IMG/VR virus record: IMGVR_UViG_3300026512_000528
Coordinates: 1-22,394 of that record
Reading direction: 5' to 3' (one strand)
Source: a virus
DNA length: 22,394 nucleotides
Below the pieces are notes generated by a model, which was not told where the DNA came from, did not search any database, and saw only the letters and a list, made by a program, of their open reading frames with translations. Of this stretch, positions 98 through 18,150 are shown in pieces; position 1 is the stretch's first letter, and each line of letters opens with the position of its first letter. The position numbers and the translations under genes are program-made.

Positions 98-1360
98 ATG
101 GCAATAACATTAGCAGATGTAAAATTTTTTCATAGTCAAGTAAATGATGACTCTGACAATAATGGAGGCCCTATAAGTAATAAGGAAGTGGACAAGAATG
201 CAGGGTATTCTATCTTTCCTATTGTAACGAAAGAAGAAGCTAGTCAGGGAATAATAAGATATAGAAAAATATTTATAACAAGTGCAGACCGGTGGGGCTA
301 TAATCTTTATTACACATTATTAAAACCTCCAGCCAGTCAATTCAAAATGTATATAAGGCCAGGAACATTCTGGGATACACAGGCTGACATAAAAAATGCA
401 AGTGATTGGTATGGATGTGGGAAGTTAATTGAAAATGCAGATAGAGAAACACATCTTCTAAATACTGAGTTTGTAGATGATAATTATACTTTCAATAAAA
501 ATGATATTATTGCAGTGGGAATATTTGATAATAACCAGATAAAATTTACAAACGTAAGGTATTACACCGTAAAAGGTTTCAGAAAAGCTCTATCTTATAA
601 TTCAATACCTGATGGAAGCTATATCGTTATAGATAATCCTGACCAAGCCTTACCAGGACACATATCTACATATAATAAGTCATATGATATCAATGGAACA
701 GAACAAATCAAAAACAATAAAAAACATGAAATCAATGATTATGATATAACAACAACCAGTCCACAAGGAGACGTTACCTTCAATGGCCAACTTGTCAGGA
801 TACATTCTCCAATAGAGGGGTCAGATACTGTAGAAGATTCTCCTCAGTGGATTCAAGGAAATAAACTGAAAATAGAAACACTTGAACAATTGATGGAAAA
901 TTATATACCTGACTCAACATATGTTGGGCGTATATTAAGATTAGGCGATTTGAAGCCAGGAATAACAGATATTCAGGTTAATAGTCCATCAGGATATGTC
1001 AACAAATATAAAATGTCATTTAATACATTAGCTACGATTGAAGAATCATGGACAATTACCTTCACAAGTTCTACTGAGTTTATATGTGAAGGACAACATG
1101 TAGGTAACGTAGGATCTGGAAATATAAGTTCAGTTTTTCAACCAACAAATCCTACATTTAATCACCCATATTTCATTATAAAGACTGATTTTTGGGAAGG
1201 TACATTTGCTGCTAATGATACAGTAACATTTACAACATTAGCTGCAGCTAAAGCTGTTTGGTTAAAACTTGTGATTCCTCCAGGAACAAAAGAATCCCAA
1301 TTAATTGAATGGAGTGTATTTTGGGATATCATGACTGAGGATATCACAATAGATAAATGA
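98..1360 (+). CDS. Phage structural protein, paralogue of the gene at 17161-18150
   Basis: 420 residues with no signal peptide or membrane segment. The N-terminus (residues 1-60, with FPIVTKEEA and IRYRKIF) and especially the C-terminal part (about 315-400) match the 329-residue protein encoded at 17161-18150. Shared strings include WTITFTS, a CEG..GNVGSG motif, FAANDTVTFTT, and AAK.VWLK followed by a proline-rich end. The middle (about 150-300) is absent or unrelated in the paralogue. The beta-rich composition and the tail-type neighbours suggest a virion component, perhaps tail or baseplate, but I do not recognise a named family. Start ATG 98 is preceded by GAGG at 87-90. The next gene follows after 27 nt, consistent with an operon. 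Confidence 0.85.
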   Translation: MAITLADVKFFHSQVNDDSDNNGGPISNKEVDKNAGYSIFPIVTKEEASQGIIRYRKIFITSADRWGYNLYYTLLKPPASQFKMYIRPGTFWDTQADIKNASDWYGCGKLIENADRETHLLNTEFVDDNYTFNKNDIIAVGIFDNNQIKFTNVRYYTVKGFRKALSYNSIPDGSYIVIDNPDQALPGHISTYNKSYDINGTEQIKNNKKHEINDYDITTTSPQGDVTFNGQLVRIHSPIEGSDTVEDSPQWIQGNKLKIETLEQLMENYIPDSTYVGRILRLGDLKPGITDIQVNSPSGYVNKYKMSFNTLATIEESWTITFTSSTEFICEGQHVGNVGSGNISSVFQPTNPTFNHPYFIIKTDFWEGTFAANDTVTFTTLAAAKAVWLKLVIPPGTKESQLIEWSVFWDIMTEDITIDK

Positions 1361-1387: not shown

Positions 1388-2338
1388 ATGGCATTATATG
1401 ATACTATATCAGGGTATAATTATTACATACAGGACATAAACAACCAAGATATTAATAAAGGAGATTTTTTCAGGTTTGTAGATGCAGGAGAAGTAAAAAA
1501 TTTTATTTATAGAGCGGTAACACAGGGACATATAACTACACAAACGGCCTCTGATGAACCATCTAATATTGTAGAAGGTCAAATATTCTGGGAAGATAAT
1601 GTAGGTTGGTATTGTTTAGACCATTATATCAGTGATTATTTATTAGATTTGATTTTACAGACCTTACAATCCAATATAAACTACATTGCAATATGCACGA
1701 ACATCCCTATTGAATTTTATGAAGCATATGTTCCTGATGAATGGACTGCAAACACATCCTATTCAGTAGGAGCTCTTGTAAGACCTACAAACTGGACACA
1801 ACCTGGAATATTTGAAGTGAAGGAAATCACAGGTAGTGGAACATCAGGGTCAACTGAACCCAATTGGCCTACTAGTATTGATGATATAATTAATCCCGAT
1901 TACACAATAACTGATAATGAAATCACCTGGAGACCACGACCTAATTATGCATTGGCTCATGGGGTTGTAGATATGCCTAGTATCAGTCAAATAGAACCAG
2001 GAATTCATGCAGGAAGAGTTTTAAAAATAATACAAACAATGTCAGCAATTGTTGATAAAAGCGGTGAAGCTAAATATGTTGCGTTCTGTGATACAAATAA
2101 TAAGAAAATTCTATTAGTTAATAAAAATGCAAACATTGGGACAGTCACTGCAGGAGAAGCAATAGGAATTAATTATTTCAGTTATGAAATTGTTGGGCCA
2201 GGTTACATAATCCCATTAGACCAAGGAACAAGTGGTTCTGGTAGTGGATCTGAGAGTGGCTCAGGTTCTAGTGGTGAAACAGGTGGTGAAACAGGTGGTG
2301 AAACAGGTGGTGAAACAGGTGGAGGAGGAGCTTTCTAA
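1388..2338 (+). CDS. Tail-fibre-like protein with Gly/Ser/Glu-Thr repeat tail
   Basis: 316 residues. Residues about 118-183 carry a pattern frequent in phage tail proteins: EWTANTSYSVGALVRP, then FEV...GTSGSTEPNWPT and a closing ITWRPR, a small beta module. The C-terminus (about 277-316) is low-complexity: alternating Ser-Gly, then four GETG units encoded by an exact 12-bp tandem repeat, then GGGGAF. Such tails usually act as flexible linkers or tips. ATG 1388 follows AAAGGAGGATTTCTT, a near-ideal ribosome binding site. The next gene (DUF2341/LamG) begins 27 nt downstream on the same strand, so the two may belong to one fibre or decoration assembly; that link is inference. Virion type fairly sure, exact role unknown. 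Confidence 0.85.
   Translation: MALYDTISGYNYYIQDINNQDINKGDFFRFVDAGEVKNFIYRAVTQGHITTQTASDEPSNIVEGQIFWEDNVGWYCLDHYISDYLLDLILQTLQSNINYIAICTNIPIEFYEAYVPDEWTANTSYSVGALVRPTNWTQPGIFEVKEITGSGTSGSTEPNWPTSIDDIINPDYTITDNEITWRPRPNYALAHGVVDMPSISQIEPGIHAGRVLKIIQTMSAIVDKSGEAKYVAFCDTNNKKILLVNKNANIGTVTAGEAIGINYFSYEIVGPGYIIPLDQGTSGSGSGSESGSGSSGETGGETGGETGGETGGGGAF
2273..2320 (+). repeat. 12-bp tandem repeat, four exact units
   Basis: The unit GGTGAAACAGGT occurs four times in a row without mismatch and encodes GETG x4 in the C-terminal tail of the tail-fibre-like protein. The length is a multiple of three, so gain or loss of units keeps the frame. Confidence 0.95.
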
Positions 2339-2364: not shown

Positions 2365-3579
2365 GTGGAATTGAACAACTGGCTATATTTCAGGGAGATC
2401 CAAATAGATGCAACAAATATCAATATGAACCTGACTGATTGGTTAGTTGCTATTAAGTTAGACTCCAATAACTTTGATTTCAGTAAAACTCAACCTTCTG
2501 GAGCTGATATTAGGTTTACGGATTCGGATAAAACTACATCACTTGATTACTGGATAGAAAACTATGATACAAATAATCAGAAAGCTACTATTTGGGTCAA
2601 AATCCCATCAATACTAGCCAATTCATCCAAATCAATTTACATATGGTATGGAAATCCAAATGCAATAACTAATAGTAATATAACTATTATTAGTGATCCA
2701 TTCAATGACAATTCCTGTCTAGCATTCTATCCATTTGACGGAGACACAAATGATTATTCAGGTAATGGCTATCATGGAACATGGTATGGCAATGAACAAT
2801 ATGATGGTGGGGTATTTGGACAGTGTGCTAAGTTTGATGGAGAAAGTTATATTGAAACAAGTTTCAATAGTAATTCATTAACATGTGTTGTATATTCATT
2901 TTGGCTTTCGTTTAATAATAACCCTGAATCTCAAAAAATTCTCGGGTTCTCTGGTTCGTCTGATATGGCTATACAAATAATGAATGGGACAACGGCAAGG
3001 GTTTACTTTCGTAGTAATTTAGTATATCAAGATGTTTCAAATTTCTTTATTAACGATGGTTCATGGCATCATTATTTATTTATAATAGATAATAACGGAA
3101 CCAAACATTATAGAGATGGAACATTTATAACAACTACAACACAAACAATTTCATCAGTAACAACACCATTTAGAATAGGATTAGTAATAGATGATTCAAA
3201 TTTATCAAACTATTATAATGGCTTGATGGATCAAACACACATTTTCAACCGTCCATTAACCGAATATGAAATTTTATCATTATCCCAACAACTACCTTAT
3301 TCCATAGGTGATGAAATATTCCATGGGTCCAAACTATCAGGTGTTGTATGTGATAAATATGGTATTCCTATTGTCGATAAACCAGTAAAAATATTTATTT
3401 TTGATAAGGATTCAGGTAAATTATATAGGACAACAACATCAGACAAAGGAAAATGGGAAGCTGATCATCTACCTGTAGCAGAAAATTCTAAAGTATTGGT
3501 GGTATACACTCTGGAAGGAGATTATCGTGGGGATAACGATCTTGTAGGAGGGGAATTTTCTATAACTCAACCACTATGA
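2365..3579 (+). CDS. DUF2341 + LamG-type jelly-roll protein with C-terminal Ig-like domain
   Basis: 404 residues starting at GTG 2365, chosen because AGGAG at 2351-2355 lies 9 nt upstream. Residues about 5-105 fit DUF2341: NWLYFREIQID, ADIRFTDSD, WIENYD, ATIWVKIP and IYIWYGNP. Residues about 118-310 fit a concanavalin/LamG-like fold: CLAFYPFDGDTNDYSGNGYHGT, AKFDGESYIET, DGSWHHYLFI, NGLMDQTHIFNRPLTEYEI. Residues about 320-404 are a carboxypeptidase-regulatory/Ig-like domain (LSGVVCDKYGIPI, TTTSDKGKWEA, YTLEGDYRGDND). The last domain closely matches the end of the protein at 10295-11503. This architecture is typical of carbohydrate- or surface-binding adhesins, so a receptor-binding or decoration role is likely. 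It ends 1 nt before the convergent helicase gene. Confidence 0.9.
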   Translation: MELNNWLYFREIQIDATNINMNLTDWLVAIKLDSNNFDFSKTQPSGADIRFTDSDKTTSLDYWIENYDTNNQKATIWVKIPSILANSSKSIYIWYGNPNAITNSNITIISDPFNDNSCLAFYPFDGDTNDYSGNGYHGTWYGNEQYDGGVFGQCAKFDGESYIETSFNSNSLTCVVYSFWLSFNNNPESQKILGFSGSSDMAIQIMNGTTARVYFRSNLVYQDVSNFFINDGSWHHYLFIIDNNGTKHYRDGTFITTTTQTISSVTTPFRIGLVIDDSNLSNYYNGLMDQTHIFNRPLTEYEILSLSQQLPYSIGDEIFHGSKLSGVVCDKYGIPIVDKPVKIFIFDKDSGKLYRTTTSDKGKWEADHLPVAENSKVLVVYTLEGDYRGDNDLVGGEFSITQPL

Positions 3580-9738: not shown

Positions 9739-9960
9739 TCATTCAGAAATTTTTCTAAACCTTTCAACTTTGTTACCTTGAGGATCAACAACCATTTCAG
9801 ACCACATAGAAATAGGTCTAGCCCAAACCTTAGATTCATCAGTAGTGTCTTGATAAATAACCAATTCCTCACCAGTTTCTGAATGTTTAGCAATAGCCAG
9901 AACCTTATAAATAGTCCCTTTCTTGAAATGCTTATATAATGCTCCAATTTCTACAGCCAT
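9739..9960 (-). CDS. DUF1653-family small protein
   Basis: 73 residues matching the DUF1653 pattern throughout: GALYKHFKKGTIYKVL, AIAKHSETGEELVIYQD, VWARPISMWSEMV, and a closing RFRKI. The family is common in bacteria and phages; its biochemical role is unknown to me, though the short beta-rich fold resembles small SH3-like modules. AAGGAGGT lies 7 nt upstream of ATG 9958-9960, an almost perfect ribosome binding site. It is preceded by a 334-bp gene-free region holding structured element A, whose inner edge is 106 nt from this start codon. Confidence 0.9.
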   Translation of the reverse strand: MAVEIGALYKHFKKGTIYKVLAIAKHSETGEELVIYQDTTDESKVWARPISMWSEMVVDPQGNKVERFRKISE

Positions 9961-10045: not shown

Positions 10046-10066
10046 TATCAGACAATGATATTTTGG

Positions 10067-10179
10067 TTTCTCACCCAGTTTCTTAAAAATCAGGTATGAT
10101 TATATGTAAACGTAATAAAAATGTCATCTCAACCGATTTATCATTGTCTCGCATGGTGATTTGAAATTGGGATAAGAAA
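10067..10179. ncRNA. Structured element, copy A (about 113 nt)
   Basis: The ends pair as TTTCT/AGAAA and, inside a small loop, CCCAGTTTC (10074-10082) with GAAATTGGG (10163-10171). A further stem pairs AAATCA (10087-10092) with TGATTT (10157-10162), then ATGAT (10096-10100) with ATCAT (10140-10144). Copy B at 11608-11721 has the same layout. Conserved unpaired or inner blocks are TATGTAAA, GTCATCTCA-CCG and TATCATTGTCTC. In the inner stem the sequence differs between copies but pairing is kept, which supports a folded RNA. Strand is unresolved: G-U pairs favour the plus strand, whereas the equal distance to a downstream minus-strand start codon (106 and 104 nt) favours a 5' leader on the minus strand. 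I recognise no known RNA family. Confidence 0.55.
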
Positions 10180-10247
10180 TAATTCTTAATTACATCACTA
10201 AAAGGTATTTTGATAGAATGAAAAAAGAACTGAATGTAGGTATGAAA

Positions 10248-10290
10248 AATAAGTTATTTTGATATTTAAAAACTTTTTAGAAAACTTATT
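10248..10290 (-). terminator. Weak terminator candidate after the DUF2341 gene
   Basis: AATAAGTT (10248-10255) pairs with AACTTATT (10283-10290). On the minus strand the stem follows the stop codon at 10295 by a few bases and is followed by TTTTCAT. The stem is nearly all A-T and the loop is long, so termination would be weak. Confidence 0.35.
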
Positions 10291-10294
10291 CACC

Positions 10295-11503
10295 TCACCA
10301 TGGAAAAGTGAATTCTGCACCTGCAATATCCACATCCCCGTGGTATTCACCTTCAAGTGTAAAAACAGTAACAACCTTAGTTTCAGAAGAAGCTGCAACC
10401 TTACAACTCCAATTTCCATTATTATCACTAGTTGTCTTACCTAATAGTTGTCCTGTAGTTTTCTCCAAAACAAAAACTTTTACAGTTTTGCCCAAAATAG
10501 GATTTCCATATTTATCACGAACAGTTCCTGACAAAGTAGCACCTGTTCTTTCATCTCCTATTGAACTAAGGGTGGGTGTAGGATCAACATATTTACGAAT
10601 TCTTATCCAATCAACCCGTGAAGAACTCGAACCTCCCCATTTTGCATGGCCTAAATAAATATAATAATCCTCAATCTCATTATGGGAGTCCTTTCCATTT
10701 AATTTATTTACATAGTTCACATTAAAAATTTGAGAACCAGTAGAATTCCAAACAAACGACCAGATTCCTTCTGTATCAGAACATCCAATTGAAGCTACTG
10801 TCCATCCATGAGAATTGTCATCCCCTATTATCCTATAACTACCTCCATAAACATCAGCAGAGTAGTCATCATAATAATTTCCATCCCCTCTCAAAACTAT
10901 CCCTGTTGACTGACCCAGTCTAAGAGTTGCACCAGTAGAAGTAAAAAAATCTGTTTTTGCTTCCACCCATACAGGATATACAAATTTATCATTTGAATGA
11001 ATCCATATATAATCCCCTCCCCCACTACTAAATATAATTCGAGAGTTTATAATATTTAAACTCCCTCCACTTGAATACTGCTGAGTCCATTTACTTGTAT
11101 CCAAACTATCTCCGTCAAAATCATCAAAAAATTCAAAAACATCCTCTCCATTACTAACATTGAGAGCCTCTGGATTTCCATAATAGCAATAAATATCCAC
11201 ATCATTGTCAAGTGAATCCAATATTTTTACCCAAACATAGGCAATCCTATTGGGAGCTGTTCCTTCTACCTTTTCTACCCAGATTGGAAATATGTTTGCT
11301 GCATTTAAACCTGTAAATCTTATATCACCTGAATCATTTTTACCAATTGGAAATCTTGAGGAATGTCCTTCTAGATGGAAATCATAATTACTAGAACCTT
11401 CACTTTCTCCAATCTTAAATAACATCTGATATCCCATTCCAATACCATTTCTTCCTTTTATTGTAATTTTTTTACAATAACCCCATCCAGTTAACCACTT
11501 CAT
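10295..11503 (-). CDS. DUF2341 protein with C-terminal Ig-like domain (second copy)
   Basis: 402 residues from ATG 11503, chosen because GAGAGG lies 7 nt upstream and DUF2341 proteins usually start at this point (MKWLTGWGYCKKITI). DUF2341 covers about residues 4-120 (GDIRFTGLN, PIWVEKVE, AYVWVKIL, DIYCYYGNPEA). A concanavalin-like beta sandwich follows (FFDDFDGDSLDTSKWTQ to SSSSRVDWIRIRKY). The last about 80 residues form an Ig/carboxypeptidase-regulatory domain (LSGTVRDKYGNPIL, TTSDNNGNWS, FTLEGEYHGD) closely like that of the protein at 2365-3579. It is probably a surface-binding virion or secreted protein. The frame is open a further 57 codons upstream, through half of element B; a TTG at 11584 after GGAGGT is an alternative start. 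It is flanked on both sides by the structured elements. Confidence 0.88.
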   Translation of the reverse strand: MKWLTGWGYCKKITIKGRNGIGMGYQMLFKIGESEGSSNYDFHLEGHSSRFPIGKNDSGDIRFTGLNAANIFPIWVEKVEGTAPNRIAYVWVKILDSLDNDVDIYCYYGNPEALNVSNGEDVFEFFDDFDGDSLDTSKWTQQYSSGGSLNIINSRIIFSSGGGDYIWIHSNDKFVYPVWVEAKTDFFTSTGATLRLGQSTGIVLRGDGNYYDDYSADVYGGSYRIIGDDNSHGWTVASIGCSDTEGIWSFVWNSTGSQIFNVNYVNKLNGKDSHNEIEDYYIYLGHAKWGGSSSSRVDWIRIRKYVDPTPTLSSIGDERTGATLSGTVRDKYGNPILGKTVKVFVLEKTTGQLLGKTTSDNNGNWSCKVAASSETKVVTVFTLEGEYHGDVDIAGAEFTFPW

Positions 11504-11607
11504 TTCATATCCTCTCAACAATTTTTCAAAACCAGAAGTATTATGTATAGCTATCCAATGTTTTTGGAATGTGACACCAAACAATTTACCTCCAAAATAA
11601 AATATTG

Positions 11608-11721
11608 GTTTCTCACCCAATTTAAAACCCAATCTGAATGATAATATGTAAAACCAATCAAAACGTCATCTCACCGGTGTTATCATTGTCTCAGACGGGG
11701 ATTTGAAATTGGGATGGAAAC
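11608..11721. ncRNA. Structured element, copy B (about 114 nt)
   Basis: The ends pair as GTTTCT (11608-11613) with GGAAAC (11716-11721), one G-U if plus strand. Next CCCAATTT (11616-11623) pairs with AAATTGGG (11706-11713), and AAAACCC (11624-11630) with GGGATTT (11698-11704) with one A-A mismatch. TCTGA (11633-11637) then pairs with TCAGA (11691-11695), and ATGATAA (11638-11644) with TTATCAT (11680-11686). A CACCGGTG palindrome sits at 11672-11679. Compared with copy A, the third stem changes CCC/GGG to TCA/TGA and stays paired, a compensatory change. It lies between the terminator at 11730-11771 and the DUF2341 gene on the minus strand, 104 nt before that start codon. No family recognised. 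Confidence 0.55.
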
Positions 11722-11729
11722 AAATTATT

Positions 11730-11771
11730 GACTCCTTATCTCATGTTCATGAGTTTTTGAGACAAGGAGTC
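11730..11771 (-). terminator. Rho-independent terminator
   Basis: The arms 11730-11743 and 11758-11771 (GACTCCTT.TCTCA with TGAGA.AAGGAGTC) pair over 14 positions with one mismatch and a 14-nt loop. On the minus strand the tail is AATAATTTGTTT. It follows the end of the 167-residue gene and precedes element B. Confidence 0.75.
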
Positions 11772-11788
11772 AGCTAGACCAAATTTAA

Positions 11789-12292
11789 TTAGCTATTTTT
11801 TGCAGCCTTGAATACTTTTGGAAGGTATTTTTTCTTATTTAATTGAATCCATTGATGGTAATTGCCAGTATAACCTGAGCAGGGTCCAGCAACCGCATAA
11901 ATTGCTAAATCCATGCTAATATTTCCATCATACCTTTCATCCAACCATTTATACACCTCAATAGGAACTACAATCAGCATAGGGTTGACCCATCTACCAG
12001 TTGCCATATCATCAATATCATCAATCTTTTCTTTTAAATCATCCAAAGATACTTTTGTTGGGAACACATCATCTTCATCACAAAACCATATTGGATCCGA
12101 CAATTCTATTTCTACAAATACAAATTCTTTATATTGGCAGTTGAGTAAATCTTCAATTTGATTTATTATTTCTCTGGCATTATTATACCCTTCTACTGGA
12201 TCAACTGCTTTGGAATCTAAATGAGAAAAGAAAATTTTCTTTTCTAATTCAAAATAAGACTCAAACAAATTTCCAATTTTTTGACTACTCAT
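11789..12292 (-). CDS. Hypothetical acidic protein, 167 residues
   Basis: I start it at ATG 12290-12292 because AAGGAGG lies 5 nt upstream; a 12-residue Phe/Lys extension to 12328 has no such site. The protein is acidic in the middle (FCDEDDVFP, LKEKIDDIDDMATG), with a hydrophobic strand LIVVPIEVYKWLDE and a glycine-rich turn AGPCSGYTGNYHQW near the end. I recognise no family. It is a self-contained unit: a near-consensus promoter lies about 50 nt upstream and a strong terminator 18 nt downstream. That layout is typical of a host-polymerase-transcribed early or accessory gene; this is inference. Confidence 0.8.
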   Translation of the reverse strand: MSSQKIGNLFESYFELEKKIFFSHLDSKAVDPVEGYNNAREIINQIEDLLNCQYKEFVFVEIELSDPIWFCDEDDVFPTKVSLDDLKEKIDDIDDMATGRWVNPMLIVVPIEVYKWLDERYDGNISMDLAIYAVAGPCSGYTGNYHQWIQLNKKKYLPKVFKAAKNS

Positions 12293-12349
12293 ATATTCCT
12301 CCTTAAACTTAAATTTAAAAATTAACATTATATCCTTTCAACTGATTAT

Positions 12350-12378
12350 ATAATAATAAAAATTAAATATGTTGTCAA
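12350..12378 (-). promoter_or_regulatory. Sigma70-type promoter for the 167-residue gene
   Basis: On the minus strand a perfect TTGACA (12373-12378) is followed after 17 nt by TATTAT (12350-12355), five of six matches. A start near 12343 would give a leader of about 50 nt. This is the best promoter match I see in the window and it implies use of the host housekeeping polymerase. Confidence 0.7.
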
Positions 12379-12454
12379 GTATTAATTAGAAAATTTGAAA
12401 AAATTTTTAGAGGAGATTTTCAAAAGATACAAGTAGTTACATACAATTAATCAG

Positions 12455-17160: not shown

Positions 17161-18150
17161 TTAATAAACCTTACCTAAGATTCCAATCCTAAACATATTA
17201 GATGTTACATTCATACCTGGGACAACAACTCTTTTTAACCATACAGGTTTAGCAGCAGGAATTGTTGTGAATGTTACTGTATCATTAGCAGCAAATGTTC
17301 CGCCCCATCCTGCTGAAGGAATGGTAAAATAAGGCGTACTAAAATCAGGATTGTCTGGACTGAAATCAGCTGTAATATACCCAGACCCTACATTACCTGT
17401 ATATTCTCCTTCACATGTAAAGTCAGAATCGCTTGTAAAGGTAATTGTCCAATTATCAAATACAGTCCCTACACTATTTAACTGGATAGGATTATTGGTA
17501 TTATCATAAGTTCCATTGGTACTGTTCACCGTAAAATTTTCTAATCCCACTCCAATATCCCCTAATACTAATAATGAACTTACATGTGTATCAGAAGCAG
17601 TAAAATCATGTTGAATTGCATCCCCATCTTGTAATTGAATGGTAATTTGCTTATCTGTAACACTGACTACTGTTATGTTTTCATGTAATTCCTCATCAAC
17701 CGAACCACCTATCCAAATACTATCCCCTGTCTGAAATATTTCATTAGCAATATCAGTATGTTCCACCTCTACAACTAACTGTGTATCTCCTGCAGTTAAA
17801 TCATTAACAAGTTGAGCTCCTCCATAATTCCTTTCACTACCAGTTAGATCAGCTTGAGTATCAGTTTGGGTTCCCTCAAACATTGTAATGTAGTCCTCAC
17901 CTGTGGTAGGTAATGCAAGGTAAACTCTACTGTCAGCTAAAACTGTATTCTGTGCATTCTCAACTTTGAAAAATACCTTGCGATATTTAGTGGAACCATT
18001 AACCCTTTCTGTTTCTAATACATCTGGAAAAATGTTGTTTCTAACACCAGAAGCTACCAAAGATGAGGACATCCGTCCTCCTCCAGATGATGTATCAAGC
18101 ATTACTTCTGATTTATACATTTTGATTTCTTCAGGTTGGATCGTTGCCAT
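17161..18150 (-). CDS. Phage structural protein, paralogue of the gene at 98-1360
   Basis: 329 residues. The N-terminus (MATIQPEEIKMYKSEVM, with FPDVLETERVNGSTKYRKVFF) and the C-terminal about 110 residues (WTITFTSDSDFTCEGEYTGNVGSG, FAANDTVTFTTIPAAKPVWLKR) match the protein at 98-1360. The middle (about 100-185) has its own beta-rich insert with TAGDTQLVVEVEHTD and SIWIGG, resembling a small ligand-binding or assembly module. No signal peptide or membrane segment. A virion role is likely. AGGAGG lies 6 nt before ATG 18148-18150. It follows the 98-residue gene on the same strand after about 42 nt. Confidence 0.87.
   Translation of the reverse strand: MATIQPEEIKMYKSEVMLDTSSGGGRMSSSLVASGVRNNIFPDVLETERVNGSTKYRKVFFKVENAQNTVLADSRVYLALPTTGEDYITMFEGTQTDTQADLTGSERNYGGAQLVNDLTAGDTQLVVEVEHTDIANEIFQTGDSIWIGGSVDEELHENITVVSVTDKQITIQLQDGDAIQHDFTASDTHVSSLLVLGDIGVGLENFTVNSTNGTYDNTNNPIQLNSVGTVFDNWTITFTSDSDFTCEGEYTGNVGSGYITADFSPDNPDFSTPYFTIPSAGWGGTFAANDTVTFTTIPAAKPVWLKRVVVPGMNVTSNMFRIGILGKVY

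Follow-up and report, generated by a model that had tools for sequence, protein, structure and literature searches.

A repeated intergenic element in two viral contigs

What are the two similar sequences that lie between genes, in direct orientation and 1542 nt apart, in a 22,394-bp IMG/VR virus record (the window; GC 31.9%)? The initial annotation described copies A and B as sharing named conserved blocks and nested stems, and read them as a structured RNA with compensatory changes. The blocks are indeed present, and the copies are 78% identical over 92 ungapped nt (10096-10187 and 11638-11729), with a further stretch of 86% identity over 28 nt on the other side (10054-10081 and 11596-11623). 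Scanning 2.9 million viral contigs by pattern retrieved a second carrier, IMGVR_UViG_3300026512_000684 (21,768 bp; hereafter contig 000684), with three additional full copies, termed L31, L32 and L33. The family consists of repeats of about 105 bases scattered between genes, with five full copies and one decayed copy (Table 1). The five copies score 86-101 bits (E 6e-26 to 1e-30) with a sequence model built from these same copies, so that the high scores arise by construction and it is the difference from the background that carries information: apart from the decayed copy, the rest of both contigs reaches at most about 8 bits. A protein-coding explanation of the shared blocks is unlikely because a 1-nt gap near the centre of the element sets copies apart and their small open frames are not common to them.

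Table 1. Features of the element and its surroundings in the window and in contig 000684
Feature	Position	Strand	Basis or remark
Copy A, conserved core (TTTCAAATC ... GGGTGAGAAAC)	10066..10168	-	sequence model 101 bits; five-copy alignment
Copy B, conserved core	11608..11710	-	sequence model 93 bits; five-copy alignment
Copy L31	contig 000684 ~843-965	+	full copy
Copy L32	contig 000684 ~2068-2189	+	full copy
Copy L33	contig 000684 ~2229-2331	+	full copy
Decayed copy	contig 000684 742-804		sequence model 14 bits, E 0.002
Promoter-like site in A: ATGACA - 17 nt - TATAAT	10099..10127	-	11/12
Promoter-like site in B: ATGACG - 17 nt - TATTAT	11641..11669	-	9/12
Upstream box 1 (TTTCAAATC) in A	10158..10166	-	alignment; TTCAAATC invariant in 5/5 copies
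Upstream box 1 (TTTCAAATC) in B	11700..11708	-	alignment
Upstream box 2 (GAGACAATGAT) in A	10140..10150	-	alignment; GAGACA invariant in 5/5 copies
Upstream box 2 (GAGACAATGAT) in B	11682..11692	-	alignment
Downstream box (GGGTGAGAAAC) in A	10066..10076	-	alignment; ~+16 to +26 of predicted transcript
Downstream box (GGGTGAGAAAC) in B	11608..11618	-	alignment
Inverted box 2 (CAGACAATGAT) just downstream of A	10049..10059	+	candidate second operator half
15-bp stem-loop directly upstream of B	11729..11772	-	-22.9 kcal/mol
DUF2341-domain gene between B and A	10295..11503	-	Pfam PF10102 7e-20; alternative start TTG 11584
DUF1653 gene downstream of A	9739..9960	-	Pfam PF07866 1e-21; predicted leader ~132 nt

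At the gathering threshold, no Rfam family matches the copies, in line with the initial annotation, which could match the element to no RNA family; a permissive threshold gave nine weak matches, far below the gathering threshold. Pattern and blastn searches of IMG/VR, INPHARED, PLSDB and GTDB contigs returned chance matches only, beyond contig 000684. Two sets of pattern matches in viral contigs (2 + 25) have nothing but the searched motif in common with the element and appear to be chance matches, those inspected lying inside coding sequence, and seven further viral matches are likewise chance-like. Scans of GTDB genomes yielded none and then 17 matches to the searched letters only (10-20 bits, versus 86-101 for the real copies). 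No genuine match to the element was found in INPHARED phages or PLSDB plasmids, nor a clear copy in three viral records that carry a relative of the window's GyrB, and no syntenic relative was found. The element is a real repeated element, undescribed as far as searched.

The PHROG matches of the window include the large subunit of a type II DNA topoisomerase (GyrB-like), a DnaB-like helicase and SNF2-type helicases; no tRNA genes were found in it. Two of its proteins, encoded on opposite strands (98-1360, plus; 17161-18150, minus), are function-unassigned paralogues with the same PHROGs (6128 and 9261). There is no convincing protein similarity between the window and contig 000684, and the only DNA common to them besides the element is one plain promoter region. 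This intergenic stretch (window 12343-12396, minus; contig 000684 17295-17350, plus) is 79% identical over 56 nt and carries TTGACA-17-TATTAT directly before a gene in each contig. Given that GC content and tetranucleotide signatures are alike in both contigs (0.43-0.59 within and between contigs), the two may be fragments of a single large-genome phage lineage. The copies are accordingly known from two contigs that may represent a single lineage, rather than from demonstrably different phages.

A promoter-like site flanked by conserved boxes

In the orientation of the window's minus strand, all five copies contain a sigma70-like site, ATGAC[A/G] and TAT[A/T]AT separated by exactly 17 nt. The hexamers were judged against a sigma70-type consensus, with the sigma factor of the host assumed; the sites of L31, L32 and L33 match at 9/12, 10/12 and 10/12 positions, respectively. 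Both hexamers fall inside nearly invariant blocks (GAGATGAC.TTTT and TTTACATAT.ATCAT), while the central 7 nt of the spacer differ between copies (TATTACG, GATTGGT, AATCAAT, TATGATG) at constant length. Length changes do occur elsewhere in the element family, and a variable spacer of fixed length between hexamers is what a promoter predicts. Permuting the columns of this alignment produced an equally good shared site on either strand in 1.1% of cases by lowest score and in 0.3% by summed score; the match was noticed after the fact, and a chance of about 1% is only moderately improbable. The -35 hexamer is weak in B and L31 (ATGACG). No promoter common to the copies was found on the opposite strand. 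Judged from these patterns, a minus-strand promoter would account for the conserved blocks better than a structured RNA does.

The promoter-like site is flanked by two boxes upstream, TTCAAATC at about -75 and GAGACA at about -55 relative to the predicted start, and by GGTGAGA downstream at about +20. Box 2 recurs in inverted form (CAGACAATGAT) just downstream of A; it is also found in L32, is degraded in L31 and is absent from B.

Further strong promoter-like sites of this type were recognised in both contigs, namely TTGACA-17-TATTAT before window gene 12328 (minus) and contig 000684 gene 17401 (plus), and TTGACA-17-TATATT before contig 000684 gene 1276 (plus). They sit 22-59 nt before the starts of co-directional genes.

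Position of the copies relative to genes

The gene layout bears out that A and B each lie upstream of a minus-strand gene. The predicted transcription start lies 132 nt before the start codon in the case of A and 131 nt before it in the case of B, and the genes are co-directional. The near-equal spacing to the start codon given in the initial annotation (106 and 104 nt) is correct provided that ATG 11503 is the start codon of the gene below B, most likely the true one since the window's other DUF2341 protein aligns from there; the TTG with GGAGG at 11584 is also possible. These DUF2341 paralogues (2365-3579, plus, and 10295-11503, minus) have a C-terminal Ig-like domain that is 49% identical over 88 residues. 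On the other side of B, the adjoining stem-loop probably ends gene 11789-12328, as a putative terminator without a strong T run.

The copies of contig 000684 deviate from this arrangement, so equal spacing is not a rule. The promoter of L31 lies about 360 nt before the following gene, and that gene has a better promoter of its own. L32 and L33 stand in tandem (2026-2345) and point into the 3' end of gene 2338-2904, a convergent gene, which leaves them without a gene to drive. The protein encoded there is an IrrE-like metalloprotease (Peptidase_M78), and antisense transcription of its gene is possible.

Several intergenic copies without a fixed relation to genes, L32 and L33 among them, would also suit a DNA site that acts in replication, packaging, recombination or looping, with origin iterons as one example; its boxes would then bind a phage protein, and the promoter match would be incidental. 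The recurrence of GAGA-containing boxes inside the element and the inverted GAGACAATGAT sites about 90 bp apart in A and L32 point the same way. Yet at least five copies in 44 kb are many for an origin or a packaging site, neither an initiator gene nor an iteron array was seen beside the element, and the fixed-length variable spacer between the hexamers is predicted by a promoter. We regard a site of this kind as unlikely.

Folding of the copies

Under the structured-RNA reading, the element would be a small RNA or a 5' leader element with nested stems, of which possibly the outermost alone is retained. Copy B folds far better than its dinucleotide shuffles on either strand (z -3.5 plus, -4.0 minus), and the nearly equal leaders of about 130 nt behind A and B would agree with such a role. 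Copy A (z -1.2 and -1.3) and L31, L32 and L33 (z -0.9 to +0.7), however, fold no better than shuffles, and RNAalifold found no stable common fold of the aligned copies on either strand. Copy B resembles Rfam families in its size and apparent stems, but none of them matches at the gathering score.

Individual stems were followed across the family by counting the pairs kept in a hand alignment, given here in the order A, B, L31, L32, L33. The form of stem 3 seen in A keeps 6, 2, 5, 6 and 1 of 6 pairs, and that seen in B keeps 1, 6, 0, 1 and 5 of 7; the counts are 3, 5, 3, 2 and 3 of 5 for stem 4, and 6, 8, 7, 4 and 5 of 8 for stem 5. The nested structure proposed as common to the copies is, therefore, not upheld: B alone exceeds shuffles, and reshuffling of the arm variants without regard to pairing has broken stems 3 and 4 in several further copies. 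The compensation reported for the third stem between A and B is real at the level of letters, but L33 joins an A-like left arm to a B-like right arm, with neither version of the stem complete. A and B thus seem compensatory because both happen to carry matching alleles, whereas L33 carries a mismatched pair.

With the structure of B imposed on the alignment, 66.7% of cells are paired, barely more than the 63.7% obtained with shuffled partners (27 of 500 shuffles as high), in a MAFFT alignment that misplaces part of L33. Double changes occur in 2 of 23 pairs, a number equalled by 68 of 500 shuffles with five sequences only. Pairing of the outer arms fares better and is weakly positive: in A, B and L33 it is equalled by 0.2-1.4% of shuffled arms, and in L31, where it is weak, by 7%. 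Among 120 permutations of the arms, pairing of each copy's own arms takes 6th place, and a promoter does not explain the pairing in A, B and L33. L32 has no outer stem. The earlier argument that G-U pairs imply a plus-strand RNA also fails, as the wobbles point to different strands in different copies: the outer-stem mismatch of A favours plus, while G-T wobbles in the same arms of L31, L32 and L33 favour minus. Taken with the three further copies, which do not support a structured RNA with compensatory changes, we consider this reading improbable. Two copies alone can suggest an RNA covariation that further copies fail to bear out.

Mosaic copies and putative gene modules

In the five-copy alignment, 258 of 406 pairs of informative columns failed the four-gamete test, so segments have been reshuffled between copies. 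The variable segments between the conserved blocks comprise a few alleles in recombined combinations; L33, for instance, combines the first segment and the spacer of A with the second segment of L32 and the last segment of B.

In both contigs, direct copies in the same orientation lie on either side of a single gene. In the window, B and A enclose the DUF2341 gene; in contig 000684, gene 1276-1842 has L31 on one side and L32 followed by L33 on the other. Gene 1276-1842 has the look of an acquired module, with 26% GC against 32% for the genome, a promoter of its own (1192-1220) and a terminator (1869-1900). From these two loci, we infer that the layout is the expected trace of gene-module exchange by recombination between cassettes. 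Such exchange would account for L32 and L33 preceding a convergent gene.

The dispersal of the copies could alternatively reflect a transposing, MITE-like miniature mobile element that ends in imperfect inverted repeats and contains a promoter by chance. Imperfect inverted arms (GTTTC-CCCAATTT and AAATTGGG-GAAAC) flank A and B, and several copies occupy unrelated places. Nevertheless, the 5' arm is non-homologous in L31 and different in L32, although true terminal repeats are the best-kept part of such elements; neither contig showed a transposase or a duplicated target site, and all copies are oriented like the gene between them. A transposing element is, thus, very improbable.

Comparison with known phage cassettes and operators

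The closest kind of element is the PeSL (promoter-early-stem-loop) cassette of T4-like phages (Arbiol et al. 2010; Comeau et al. 2014; cited in PMC4503421 and PMC5348500). PeSLs are repeated intergenic regulatory cassettes that carry a host-type promoter and are linked to the shuffling of gene modules. The present element shares a predicted host-type promoter, found in all five copies (ATGAC[A/G]-17-TAT[A/T]AT), the mosaic copies and the single genes between direct copies. It differs in that a stem-loop adjoins only B, lying about 170 nt off for L32 and adjoining neither A nor L31; its conserved core spans about 105 nt with extra boxes; and its putative module shuffling is read from flanking direct copies and mosaic alleles rather than from genome comparison. 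As to a T4-like genome, the comparison covered the PHROG matches to a GyrB-like topoisomerase, a DnaB-like helicase and an SNF2 helicase. We do not file the element as a PeSL because most copies lack an adjoining stem-loop and a T4-like genome is not established.

Two other systems are alike by description. The haloarchaeal virus HGTV-1 is a large virus with a promoter/inverted-repeat motif before many genes, which has been compared with PeSLs (PMC3950731); it shares a conserved promoter and an inverted repeat with our element, but its promoter is archaeal and TATA-box-like. The SPbeta repeated element (SPBRE) is an operator of the repressor MrpR, and its binding protein went unrecognised for decades (PMC10516654). 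It too is a dispersed intergenic element in the promoter regions of a large phage; it is an operator of 15 bp, whereas the present element contains the promoter itself. SPBRE is a functional analogue, by resemblance, for the putative operator part of the element. The element resembles PeSL or SPBRE and is assigned to neither; it is new in sequence and of a known general kind.

Proposed role of the element

With moderate confidence, we favour the explanation that A and B are copies of a dispersed, mosaic intergenic promoter/operator cassette of one phage lineage. The element is most likely closer to a reusable on-switch shuffled round the genome than to a new structured RNA. Its promoter role and mobility are deduced from sequence patterns, and the following steps are proposed on that footing. 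RNA polymerase would bind ATGAC[A/G]-17-TAT[A/T]AT and, on the minus strand, begin transcription some 7 nt beyond it; with leaders of about 130 nt, A would drive the DUF1653 gene and B the DUF2341 gene. A phage or host regulator would act by binding at the candidate boxes TTCAAATC, GAGACA and GGTGAGA, and shared regulator sites would let all genes behind cassettes respond together. Near-identity in the blocks would allow the copies to recombine, swapping variable segments between them and moving genes, so that single genes between direct copies would be exchangeable modules.

A more elaborate form of this proposal, which would be a regulatory device not seen before and to which we attach a slim chance, places the promoter between two operator halves, GAGACAATGAT on its upstream side and an inverted GAGACAATGAT about 90 bp away on its downstream side. 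Either a phage protein or pairing of the arms would bridge the halves; the cassette, multiplied over a large phage genome, would then be both a co-regulated switch and a recombination seam for gene swapping.

If the promoter/operator cassette is the correct explanation, the repeats would mark a phage-wide regulon and the gene-swapping seams of this uncultivated phage; from them, co-regulated genes and cargo modules could be predicted in fragments of its genome.
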